Of a stretch of DNA of 37,634 bases, positions 26,372 to 30,182 are shown piece by piece. Numbering within the stretch: position 1 is the stretch's first letter; each line of letters begins with the position of its first letter. The DNA is taken from positions 1 to 37,634 of the forward strand of contig JAISIF010000195.1 in NCBI GenBank assembly GCA_031262165.1, read 5' to 3'. This DNA comes from Myxococcales bacterium (GTDB lineage: Bacteria > Myxococcota > Myxococcia > Myxococcales > UBA5297). Under the pieces are notes generated by a model, which saw only the letters and a list, made by a program, of their open reading frames with translations, ran no database searches and was not told the DNA's origin. Made by a program: the position numbers and the translations under genes.

Positions 26372-26532
26372 TAGGATTTATCCATCGATTATCCCGTCGC
26401 CCCGCTTGTCCGTGAAACGTCAGCTTTCGTTGATTCGATCTTCACTTCAGTCTGGAAGATCCGGCCTCGCGCCAACGTCTGACATTCCCCGTCCTTCGCG
26501 TTGCTCGGTCCTAATGGAGGGATAAATCCTTA
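26372..26532. repeat. 162-bp MITE-like palindromic repeat, copy 5
   Basis: It begins TAGGATTTATCC and ends GGATAAATCCTTA. The core hairpin is CTTCAGTCTGGAAG, with the first arm altered. Its right end shares the TTA at 26530-26532 with the terminus of an IS5-type transposase remnant. Confidence 0.9.
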
Positions 26533-26782
26533 GGGCTTACCCATGAATAGTGATGACCTTATTGAAAGAAATCATCGCTGCCGTCAATTCACATAAAGAA
26601 ATATATGATGCGTCCGTCTTTTCATAACGAGGAGTCAATTTCCGAAAACAGTTGAACCATGAATGACAAGCCTCAACCACCCATCGACTTGCTATAAAGT
26701 CTGGATTTTTCTCTATCAGCTTCTTCTCTTCTCCTCCCGCAGATTCAACTTTCCTCTGAAATACCCCACGTTGATCTTTCAT
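26530..26782 (-). pseudogene. IS5-type transposase C-terminal fragment with its IS terminus
   Basis: The minus strand from 26782 to 26537 encodes 81 residues containing RWVVEACHSWFNCFRKLTPRYEKTDAS and ending SFNKVITIHG. This matches the end of IS5-family transposases of the RWVVERTHSWFNRFRKLLVRYEK type, including the last catalytic glutamate, and is a different subgroup from the copies at 297 and 4171. The stop codon lies inside TTAGGGCTTACCC (26530-26542), the likely IS end. The rest of the element is missing. This IS end resembles the ends of the 162-bp repeats (11 of 13 bases the same as copy 4). Confidence 0.7.
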
Positions 26783-26957: not shown

Positions 26958-27407
26958 TCAATGGCGAATCTTGATGACTGCTTTTTTGACCTTCGTGAAA
27001 CTCTCCGAAAGCAGGGCTGGTCTGTGCGCCTCTCCGACAAAGAAGATGGCGAAATGCTGCTCGTCGAGAACGCCGCCGCATTGGATCGGCGCAGCGCCAA
27101 AGGCAGCATCCCTGTCGGCATCATAGGCTTGTGTCGGGAGAAAATCGCCACAGGCGACCTCGAAGCGCTCCTGCCCGTCGAGCACGAGCTGGAGATCGTC
27201 ATAGAGCGAATGGATCTCGAACTCGGCATCTTCGGGCGCCCGGGAATCTGACAGAAAGACGTTCACGAAGACATCGTCGCCGCCGATGTCTGTCCGGCCC
27301 AAGGGCAATGCCTCGAGATTGGATTGAAGGAGCCATTGGATGGCCGTGTCTAGGCGCGGAGAGAGGCCTGAATAGAGGGACAGGTGGTCGAGGTGGTCAT
27401 AGATCAT
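26958..27407 (-). CDS. YhcH/YjgK/YiaL family protein (DUF386)
   Basis: A protein of 149 residues from ATG 27407, chosen because GGAG lies just upstream and the MIYDHLDHL start fits the family; an upstream ATG at 27425 overlaps the previous stop codon. The cupin-like family pattern is visible: LEALPLGRTDIGGDDVFVNV (31-50), EFEIHSLYDDLQLVLDGQE (62-80), YDADRDAAFG and FAIFFVGEAHRPAL (119-132), with His66 and His128 as likely metal or substrate ligands. The usual E.HR.Y.DIQ is here EIHSLYDDLQ. Members include the sialic-acid anomerase NanQ and proteins linked to sugar catabolism. No sugar genes are nearby; instead it follows an NTPase-membrane fusion gene 14 bases upstream and is surely co-transcribed with it. 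Confidence 0.85.
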   Translation of the reverse strand: MIYDHLDHLSLYSGLSPRLDTAIQWLLQSNLEALPLGRTDIGGDDVFVNVFLSDSRAPEDAEFEIHSLYDDLQLVLDGQERFEVACGDFLPTQAYDADRDAAFGAAPIQCGGVLDEQHFAIFFVGEAHRPALLSESFTKVKKAVIKIRH

Positions 27408-27421
27408 GGCTTCTCCATCAT

Positions 27422-28936
27422 TCATTCGTGGTCACGGTTCGCCTCGTCTTGGGTGCGGGGCTGTTCAGAGGCGTCTGGGGGCTGGTTCATCAGGGCATCG
27501 AGCGCGACGGGCAGGCTCTTGCCCAGGCCAAGACCTGCTTTTTTGTCCAGCCAAATTCCGAATTGATGGAAGTCAATTCGGCGCAGGGCAAGGAAGCCGA
27601 CGTAGGAGATGCAGATAGCCCGGAGCAGGACGGCAGCGACATCCGCTGTCGATAGATTCGCAAAAAACAGGATGAGCAGCGCTGAGATGAAAAAAAAGAG
27701 CGCGTATTTCCAATTGAGGATGTCGCGCAGTGCGCCGAATGCGGACTTGCCCAGAGAGGGCTTGGGGGCAGCCTCACTCAAGGCGACATTCAAATCCTGG
27801 CGCGGCGCCAGGGTCCATTTGGGGCGCCTTTTCAACCGTTGAACGAGCGGTTGCATGTTTCCAAAATAAGCGCTGGCAGCGACGATCACCGCCAGAAATG
27901 ATTTCAGAATGAAAGCGGCGGCGATCACACTCCAGAGAGAGAACCCCTGAATCTGGGCCCATTCATTCAGCTTGTCGAGGGCATTGGCATAGGCATCAAA
28001 AAAAGCCATTCCAAAGACGAGGTAATTCAGCAGCAGCTTCATCGTCAGCGTGAGCCAGGCCATCAGAATAGAGCCGAAGAGGACGCTCAAAAAACGAAAG
28101 CCAAATAAAAAGATCGGGAGCGTGAAGATCGAACCCTGCAAAAAGATATACAGCATGGGCCGAATTCTATCGCCGATTGGCGAGAATGCTTTGAGCATGG
28201 CGCAGATGAAGGTGATCCGAAACAATCCACGGCCATGCAGCGCTTTTCCAAAGGTGATGAGCAGGATGTTTTGCAGATAGGCCAAGAAATGGCCTTTGAG
28301 CGGGACCTTCAGGGCGCGAAGCATCGAGCCGAGGCCGACCTCGACGAGCCCATTGATGCCAGCAAAGGCGCCGATGCGTTCGGCGTCCATGGCCTCGATC
28401 GTTGATTTCAATTCGGAGAGGGCCTGGCGAGAACCCATCTCGTCGAGGTCGAGGACGATCGCGCTCTCCAGATGAAAGTGCTCGATGATCTCGGCACGCG
28501 CCTTCTTTTTGATTGCGACGATGACGATGGGGCAATCACTGCGCAGCGCTTCGAGCAATAGGTTTGAAAAACCTTCACCTTTTAATTCGAGGCGGCCAAT
28601 TTCATCGATGATGAGAATTTCGGGTTTATTCTCCGAACGATTCAATCGTTCCTGGATGAGGTTTTCAGCCACGCGTCGCGTCTCATCATTGAAGACACAC
28701 GTCTCGCCATCCTCGCGGACGGCCCAGCAATACGAGGGGCCATCCTTCGCTTCGATGGGCACCAGATCGTATCGATGGGCAGCGCCCAGCAACGCAGGCC
28801 GTCGGTCCATCCCTCGCGTGACGAAACCACCCAGGGAATGTCTCCCGCGCAGCGCTTGGGCGAGCCGGGCGAGCAGTTGGCTTTTTCCGCTGCCCGCTTT
28901 TCCCGTTATCAACAGGACCGTCTTGTTGGTTGACAT
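27422..28936 (-). CDS. THEP1-type NTPase fused to a multi-pass membrane domain
   Basis: A protein of 504 residues. Residues 1-180 are a P-loop NTPase of the THEP1 (COG1618) type: Walker A GKAGSGKS (12-19), GGFVTRG (36-42) and Walker B ILIIDEIGRLEL (107-118). Residues about 186-455 are hydrophobic, with some seven or eight membrane spans (near 190-205, 217-230, 240-255, 262-278, 282-312, 335-358, 410-428 and 433-450), and a hydrophilic stretch (365-405) between the last groups. The GINGLVEVGLGSMLRALK and MLKAFSPIGDRIRPMLYIFLQG stretches look conserved and faintly recall small-molecule (ECF S-component-like) membrane proteins, a low-confidence guess. ATG 28936 follows AAAAGG. It is divergent from a ModE-like regulator 52 bases away and co-oriented with the YhcH-family gene. 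Substrate and function are unknown. Base composition is less GC-rich than in the housekeeping genes. Confidence 0.8.
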   Translation of the reverse strand: MSTNKTVLLITGKAGSGKSQLLARLAQALRGRHSLGGFVTRGMDRRPALLGAAHRYDLVPIEAKDGPSYCWAVREDGETCVFNDETRRVAENLIQERLNRSENKPEILIIDEIGRLELKGEGFSNLLLEALRSDCPIVIVAIKKKARAEIIEHFHLESAIVLDLDEMGSRQALSELKSTIEAMDAERIGAFAGINGLVEVGLGSMLRALKVPLKGHFLAYLQNILLITFGKALHGRGLFRITFICAMLKAFSPIGDRIRPMLYIFLQGSIFTLPIFLFGFRFLSVLFGSILMAWLTLTMKLLLNYLVFGMAFFDAYANALDKLNEWAQIQGFSLWSVIAAAFILKSFLAVIVAASAYFGNMQPLVQRLKRRPKWTLAPRQDLNVALSEAAPKPSLGKSAFGALRDILNWKYALFFFISALLILFFANLSTADVAAVLLRAICISYVGFLALRRIDFHQFGIWLDKKAGLGLGKSLPVALDALMNQPPDASEQPRTQDEANRDHE

Positions 28937-28988
28937 CTCAAAACCTTTTCAGCGACAGAGCGCGGCTTTTGATCCGAAATCAGGAAGC
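28937..28988. promoter_or_regulatory. 52-bp divergent promoter region
   Basis: This short gap separates the start codons of the NTPase fusion (minus) and the ModE-like regulator (plus), so both promoters must overlap here or extend into the genes. It is the natural place for the regulator's operator. No perfect palindrome is visible; ribosome sites AAAAGG (minus) and AGGAAG (plus) occupy its ends. Confidence 0.5.
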
Positions 28989-29399
28989 ATGAATCCGGAG
29001 AATCATTCAATGCAATCTATCGACATCGATGTGCGCGTCATGCTCAAGGACGAGGAAGGCGAGCCATTCATGGGTATCGGGGTGATATGGCTATTGACGG
29101 GCATCGAAAAGCACCATTCGATCAGCCAGGCCGCCCGAGAGATGGAGCTCTCCTATCCAAAGGCGCTGCACATGATCCAATCGCTGGAGGACACGCTGCA
29201 GATGGGCATCGTCCGGCGATACAAGGGCGGGCATCTGCGGGGCGGCGCGGAGCTGACGGCAGCGGGAAAGGATTTCATAGAGCGCTATCTGGCGATGCTT
29301 TCGGAGATCAAAAAGAATTCGGTCGAAATATTTGAAAAGAGATTTCAAGATTTTTTCTCGCGGGACAGGGAAGCGGACGATGAGGACTCAGAGGATTGA
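28989..29399 (+). CDS. ModE-like winged-helix regulator without a ligand domain
   Basis: A protein of 136 residues from ATG 28989 (AGGAAG upstream); ATG 29010 is an alternative with its own CGGAGA site. Residues 15-105 match the N-terminal LysR-like domain of molybdate regulator ModE: GEPFMGIGVIWLLTGIEKHHSISQAAREMELSYPKAL with the helix-turn-helix at 44-67, MIQSLE, then RYKGGHLRGGAELTAAGKDFIERY as the wing. The C-terminal molybdate-binding MOP domains of full ModE are absent; there is a short charged tail. One-domain ModE-like proteins are common in bacteria and not all sense molybdate. Its divergence from the NTPase-membrane gene suggests it controls that operon. Its TGA stop lies in the end of a 162-bp repeat. 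Confidence 0.85.
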   Translation: MNPENHSMQSIDIDVRVMLKDEEGEPFMGIGVIWLLTGIEKHHSISQAAREMELSYPKALHMIQSLEDTLQMGIVRRYKGGHLRGGAELTAAGKDFIERYLAMLSEIKKNSVEIFEKRFQDFFSRDREADDEDSED

Positions 29400-29557
29400 G
29401 GACGTATCCCTTCATTATCCCGTCGCCCCACTTGTCCGTGAAACGCCAGACTTCGTTGCTTCGCTCTTCACTTCCGTCTGGAAGCTCAAAGCCTCGCGCC
29501 TCGTCTGACATTCCCCGTCCTTCGCGTTGCTCGGTCCTCATGAAGGGATACGTCCTG
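29396..29557. repeat. 162-bp MITE-like palindromic repeat, copy 6
   Basis: It begins TTGAGGACGTATCC and ends GGGATACGTCCTGA, with core hairpin CTTCCGTCTGGAAG. The first bases are the last codon and TGA stop of the ModE-like gene. It has the same orientation as copy 5 at 26372, about 2.9 kb away. Confidence 0.9.
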
Positions 29558-30182
29558 AGTCTTGTCTGGATGTTTTGTTGAGTTTATATCGGATGTGCTA
29601 TCTGACCGCCCGAATGTCCAAAGTCAAGAGAGTCTTTGATGGATGAAGCTTCATTCATTATAAAAATTCGAATTGACATCAATGGCCACCCGACCGGACG
29701 CCACTGCAATTCGATTCGGACACGTCACATGGAATCGTAGGAGTGCGGCATGTTGCGCCCCTAGATAAAATTGTTAATCCCGATTCAAATTGCTATGGCT
29801 CTCCACTCAGACAAGAGGATCTATCCCCTCGTCATATTCGACCAGAGAGGCCACATCCGTGAGAATGAATTCCCTTGTTTGTAAAAACAATCAAGGTGTC
29901 GTCGGGTTTTCAAGAAGGTCTCCTCAAGAGAATCAAAATATAGCCGTATAAAGAAGAAACGCTAAAAGGGAACTCCCAACAACACCGAGGTCAGTCATGC
30001 TTTACTCACGAAAAGACATGGGCAAATTTCAAGAGGTGGCCGCGTGATAATGTTTTACGATAGAAATCACTGGAGTCGGCCATCTATGAATACCCAAGAT
30101 GTCAGTGATGCTTTTTTATACGACTATATCTCTCTCTTTGTTTTCCCTTGTTGGTCAGTGACACTCGAAAGGGCTGCGTTTC
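29558..30182. other. AT-rich gap before nadB, no gene seen
   Basis: 625 bases clearly richer in A+T than the flanking genes. It holds the palindrome ATGAAGCTTCAT (29643-29654) but no open frame with protein character. The nadB promoter should be in its right part. It may be decayed mobile DNA. Confidence 0.5.

Follow-up and report, generated by a model that had tools for sequence, protein, structure and literature searches.

A gene on the minus strand of a 37,634-nucleotide stretch of a Myxococcales genome (hereafter the window) encodes a 504-residue protein in which a THEP1 NTPase is followed by an S-component-like membrane core and a C-terminal membrane segment. The gene lies at positions 27422..28936. 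Our preferred reading, which we hold with slightly better than even confidence, is that this protein is an ECF-like inner-membrane importer with THEP1 in place of EcfA/EcfA'. The original prediction had proposed energised or gated transport, or nucleotide sensing at the membrane, from the fusion of an ATPase to a carrier-like domain. Energised transport stands as the best-supported reading, though on different grounds: the S-like core, the EcfT-like domain joined to THEP1 in sister loci, and the lipoprotein and TonB-dependent receptor genes found beside many of these. Nucleotide sensing at the membrane may be a role of the fusion protein.

The fusion gene and its surroundings

The open reading frame begins with ATG and is read through all 504 codons without an internal stop. 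Its architecture, as read from the sequence, is THEP1, S-like core and C-terminal membrane segment, which we call type A. The proposed union of THEP1 with a membrane domain is borne out, as a PF03266 match and a hydrophobic remainder share one open frame. The THEP1 domain covers residues 8-157 (28466..28915, minus strand) and scores 62.2 bits (E 6.9e-17), passing the curated threshold of 23.9. Walker A (GKAGSGKS, residues 12-19; 28880-28903, minus strand) and the DEIGRLEL stretch (residues 111-118; 28583-28606, minus strand), which contains Walker B with its catalytic glutamate (DEIG, 111-114), lie exactly where they were first placed. None of the 16 THEP1 domains of the relatives has lost Walker A or DE[ILM]G, and this includes a G004 copy whose gene start is lost at a contig end. 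A second candidate THEP1 in G000 (C12) was discarded, as the P-loop region alone aligned (25 bits, 47 positions).

The domain match, Walker A and the Walker B catalytic glutamate are shared with THEP1/NTPase_1 proteins such as Aquifex aq_1292 and human NTPCR (PF03266). Those THEP1 proteins that have been solved or studied each consist of one soluble domain of about 180 residues, whereas that of the window is fused to membrane parts. The biology of THEP1 proteins had been described as unclear, and the literature reports their in vivo function as unknown (PMC1079890, PMC2700126).

The window comes from a draft assembly in 214 contigs, in which a frameshift or assembly error might have fused two genes. 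However, the same open fusion is conserved in four other myxococcal genomes, namely G001 and G002 of the same genus (63% and 66% identity), G004 (47%) and G194. A local frameshift or a faulty assembly join is thereby excluded, and we reject that explanation as having a negligible chance of being correct.

The membrane part had been described as a single carrier-like domain of about 270 residues. Its membrane nature holds, but hydropathy and the AlphaFold model divide it into two blocks: a core from residue 186 to about 365 and, after a basic linker (KRRPKW, residues 369-374), two C-terminal helices. When the membrane region was searched alone, no Pfam family matched, and an NCBIfam search of the fusion protein gave no match outside the NTPase part. 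The membrane part matched no known NTPase-containing family.

Two genes adjoin the fusion. On the same strand, a YhcH/YjgK/YiaL (DUF386) gene (26958..27425; PF04074, E 3.4e-33) has a start that overlaps the stop of the fusion gene. As it is not kept in the G001 neighbourhood, its position is probably incidental, and we reject it as a functional partner. On the plus strand, a divergent ModE-type DNA-binding protein is encoded at 29010..29399 (TIGR00637, 62.6 bits, below the cut-off of 98.5). This candidate regulator has no separate molybdate-binding domain. Its gene is kept beside the fusion in G001 and G002, as judged by reading, and in G194, as judged by HMM.

The module at 26958-29399 has a G+C content of 0.554, compared with 0.619 in the whole window, and may have been acquired from elsewhere. 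A MITE-like element of about 161 bp with inverted terminal repeats (AGGACGTATCCCTTCAT...ATGAAGGGATACGTCCT) occurs at 29399-29559 and 26373-26533 on the plus strand and at 2185-2345 on the minus strand. At least 43 matches to it are present in the draft genome, most of them 87-95% identical. Two copies in direct orientation flank the stretch of ModE, fusion and YhcH genes. One copy adjoins an open reading frame (26537-26782, minus strand) that, judged by eye, resembles the final part of a transposase.

Membrane domains and their relatives

The core (residues 186-365; 27842..28381, minus strand) is recognised by a family profile, by Foldseek and by a motif in its first helix. A profile built from type C cores and the type B core, both described below, recovered every type A core, with E-values between 4e-20 and 3e-13, which places them in one S family. 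The next of the 1,925 open reading frames searched had E 0.7, and the reverse search agrees. In a fold comparison, the highest-probability match of the core model was TmRibU, an ECF S-component (probability 0.94, TM 0.53 by target length), yet the Foldseek E-values for the core and T were all above 0.1 and the AlphaFold models had mean pLDDT values of 55 and 60. PanT, 5edl, a second RibU entry and chain S of 4huq were also among the top 30 of 350,542 chains. A sequence search of the PDB with the S core gave no match.

In helix 1, small residues are spaced four apart, as AXXXA in most type B and C cores and as GXXXG in the window and the other type A proteins; the pattern left the G040 core unmatched. 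The AXXXA motif of ECF S-components contacts EcfT and is lost in their receptor relatives (PMC11109136). Together, these models and motifs lend weak support to the core being an ECF S-component-like domain.

The core family occurs in 15 of the 195 Myxococcota genomes within which its distribution was counted, and genome-wide statements here are based on family searches. In 11 of these 15, the core is the neighbour or fusion partner of another membrane domain, here called T, which itself bears THEP1. Ten genomes have type C loci, in which the core is a separate gene of about 200 residues followed by a membrane protein with a C-terminal THEP1; in G040, G044 and G051, where a simple gene picker gave wrong or overlong frames, this call was made from profile matches. 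G004 encodes, besides its type A protein, one protein ordered core, T, THEP1 (type B). Among the 195 genomes, a search for T at E 0.001 found it in each of the 11 that have a type B or C core, always adjacent to that core, and in no other genome, so that the linkage of S, T and THEP1 in these genomes is established at the level of sequence. The three parts are either neighbours or fused, with two orders among the fusions, and we argue from this and from their constant adjacency that they work as one machine. The relatives with a name are MAGs that carry a myxococcal label, and one comes from sheep colon. A contig scan with a single peptide pattern found seven loci, each in a MAG whose title calls it myxococcal or proteobacterial; the plasmid collection yielded no S relative and one match with THEP1 alone.

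The nature of T was assessed by several comparisons. When a profile of eight T sequences was searched against all PDB chains, the best match was EcfT of an ECF folate transporter (E 0.028), with the stretches S-x-x-GL-x-x-G...R and A-x-x-x-x-P-x-L in register. CbiQ is the sole Pfam match of one T protein (E 0.0075), and hhalign of T against locally gathered CbiQ proteins gave P 0.0044 and a probability of 8%. The top three Foldseek matches of the weak T model are EcfT chains (probability 0.51-0.75). The T tails were inspected for the arginine motifs of the EcfT coupling helices; Gly-Arg stretches are frequent and a clear Ala-Arg-Gly is absent. The profile, CbiQ and fold matches weakly support an EcfT-like scaffold in the sister loci.

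Given Foldseek E-values above 0.1 and poor models, the S and T fold assignments depend on agreement between tests instead of a single strong score. It could be argued that the membrane parts have a new fold unrelated to ECF, with a resemblance generic to helical membrane proteins, and the low-confidence models, weak scores and failure of S to match any PDB sequence would suit such a case. We consider this very unlikely, because EcfT ranks first for T by both PDB sequence and fold, CbiQ is the one Pfam family to match a T, and five ECF S-components fall within the top 30 chains for the core.

The window protein differs from these loci in its last part. Its C-terminal membrane segment (residues about 400-490; 27467..27739, minus strand) occupies the place of EcfT. 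It has two further strongly hydrophobic helices, at 409-426 and 430-451, and then an amphipathic tail. The T profile search did not match this segment, hhalign against T gave P 0.4, and family searches found no T protein and no CbiQ-type scaffold or homologue in the window genus. The window form thus has no recognisable EcfT, and we do not support reading its C-terminus as one; the segment may be a scaffold in reduced form or a different kind of element.

Proposed mechanism and comparison with known systems

We infer transport, its energy coupling, its inward direction and its ligand as follows. A single chain would follow the ECF plan, with the RecA-fold THEP1 NTPase replacing two ABC ATPases. 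The S-like core would bind a micronutrient in short supply that has been brought into the periplasm. Binding and hydrolysis of NTP by THEP1 would be relayed via helices at the membrane surface, and this relay would reorient or reset the core and release the ligand inside. In sister loci the parts are encoded separately: an S gene comes first, then one for an EcfT-like scaffold fused to THEP1, often with genes for a TonB-dependent receptor and a secreted lipoprotein after it. When ATP binds to an ECF transporter, the coupling helices of EcfT move and thereby expel the S-component (PMC10368641). The T tail of type C proteins continues straight into the P-loop domain of THEP1, and we propose that an analogous coupling would be possible there.

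The unit resembles group I ECF transporters, which have a dedicated S-component, in its S-like core, its cytoplasmic NTPase and its dedicated partners encoded together. Further likenesses are the EcfT-like scaffold of the sister loci and the small-residue motif in helix 1. In contrast to the two ABC ATPases of ECF, there is one covalently attached RecA-fold THEP1; the window form contains no recognisable EcfT, and the fold likeness is weak. THEP1 also has no ABC signature and no known coupling role, which counts against an ECF-like reading. Among the neighbouring genes of the units examined, read by eye, no EcfA/EcfA' ABC ATPases were recognised. As these family-defining ATPases were not found with it, the unit should not be filed as an ECF member; as far as the evidence goes, it functions like an ECF importer.

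Alternatively, THEP1 might sit on an S-like importer as an enzyme that handles the ligand, comparable to MobB or cobalamin adenosyltransferase, and trap or modify the ligand on its arrival. Solitary S-components of the BioY type can function without an ECF module, and type A proteins have no recognisable T. MobB, itself a P-loop protein, adjoins the core in G042 and, by reading, in G044. In structure, moreover, A. aeolicus THEP1 stands nearest to cob(I)alamin adenosyltransferase (PMC1079890). We regard such an enzyme as unlikely, given that in 11 genomes THEP1 is joined to the EcfT-like scaffold, where the ATPases would be, and not to the core alone.

Histidine kinase receptors of the 5TMR class also have the S-component fold (PMC11109136). 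The window protein may share a membrane fold with these receptors, together with direct fusion to a nucleotide-using domain, with THEP1 replacing the kinase or GGDEF domain. It could accordingly be imagined as a transceptor-like membrane receptor, in which the ligand state of an S-fold sensor gates THEP1 activity; in favour of this, type A has no detectable scaffold and adjoins a divergent regulator gene. However, the receptor relatives have large residues at AXXXA (PMC11109136), whereas small ones are retained here at this scaffold-contact motif, and genes for a TonB receptor and a lipoprotein lie beside the sister copies, an arrangement consistent with uptake. A receptor is therefore quite improbable in our judgement, and we retain the THEP1-driven importer as the working interpretation.

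Ligand and possible link to molybdenum

Many type C genes are followed by genes for a lipoprotein and a TonB-dependent receptor. The nearest models of the receptor are those for B12, haem and siderophores, all matched far below cut-off. The lipoprotein (L037 6339-7148, L041 6239-7660, L043 62-1180, L044 2743-3921) carries one to three copies of a repeat of about 110 residues with invariant DF....DGF.P, G and L.W. This repeat is an uncharacterised domain: it had no match in Pfam or the PDB, and a molybdopterin-binding domain, suspected by eye, was accordingly set aside.

Most carriers of the core use molybdenum cofactor (Moco). In G042 and G044, the gene order is MoaA, MoaC, MOSC, MobB, core, T-THEP1, lipoprotein and TonB receptor; for G042, MoaA and MobB were confirmed by Pfam and the remaining Moco genes were identified by reading translations. 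ModB exceeds its cut-off in 137 of the 195 genomes overall, compared with 2 of the 15 carriers (Fisher p 3e-6, uncorrected for phylogeny, with WtpB and TupB outside the test). The Moco and ModE-type neighbours, combined with the rarity of ModB, suggest molybdate, tungstate or a related cofactor for carriers that make Moco, where the ligand is likely to be molybdate, tungstate or a chelate. The unit shares with ModABC, WtpABC and TupABC a setting of ModE-type regulator and, in some carriers, nearby Moco genes, but it contains no binding-protein-dependent ABC permease or ATPase.

This substrate falls away for the window genus, which differs from the setting of those transporters in having neither ModB nor a Moco pathway: family searches found no MoaA, MoeA, ModB or molybdopterin oxidoreductases there. 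The 86% complete G193 has no MoeA, a weak MoaA match and a fragmentary oxidoreductase match. On this basis, the view that molybdate is the single substrate in every carrier is untenable. It would follow from the comparison that either different branches have different ligands, a variation also seen in ECF S-components, or the substrate is wider than molybdenum. B12 is neither supported nor excluded; the window genus has B12-binding proteins, which are uninformative because a FecCD-type permease in the genus could serve them.

Other neighbours were recorded in the sister loci. The S gene of G040 lies after genes for a ZnuA-like binding protein and for an ABC-3-type permease, both identified by reading, and for a Fur-family regulator detected by HMM (L042 1903-6092); a similar ABC-3-type permease lies nearby in G047 (L039 3529-4887). 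These neighbours hint at a wider trace-metal theme. In the G022 genus, the neighbouring regulator is an HTH-PBP_like protein, in contrast to the ModE-type domain of type A loci. TrmO-type genes (PF01980/TIGR00104) recur beside importer genes (L035 8919-9737, L040 9918-10721, L038 3675-4517, L046 9158-10123), two recognised by HMM and two by reading.

The literature names ABC ATPases as the motor of ECF transporters (PMC10368641). No link between THEP1 and ECF was found in the open-access literature searched, a coverage outside which most subscription papers fall. A more tentative proposal, possible but short of probable, is that of a distinct class of micronutrient importer with an S-component and an EcfT-like scaffold, driven by a RecA-fold THEP1 in lieu of ABC ATPases and equipped with its own TonB receptor and lipoprotein, that would take up molybdenum or tungsten in Moco-makers without ModABC. 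A 2018 survey counted 278 molybdenum-using bacteria without a known molybdenum transporter (PMC6147048), and this gap becomes testable with a candidate that is linked to Moco and has parts in both the outer and the inner membrane. If true, an S/T importer with THEP1 as its motor would alter current pictures of both THEP1 and ECF transporters, and THEP1 would gain a defined cellular role.
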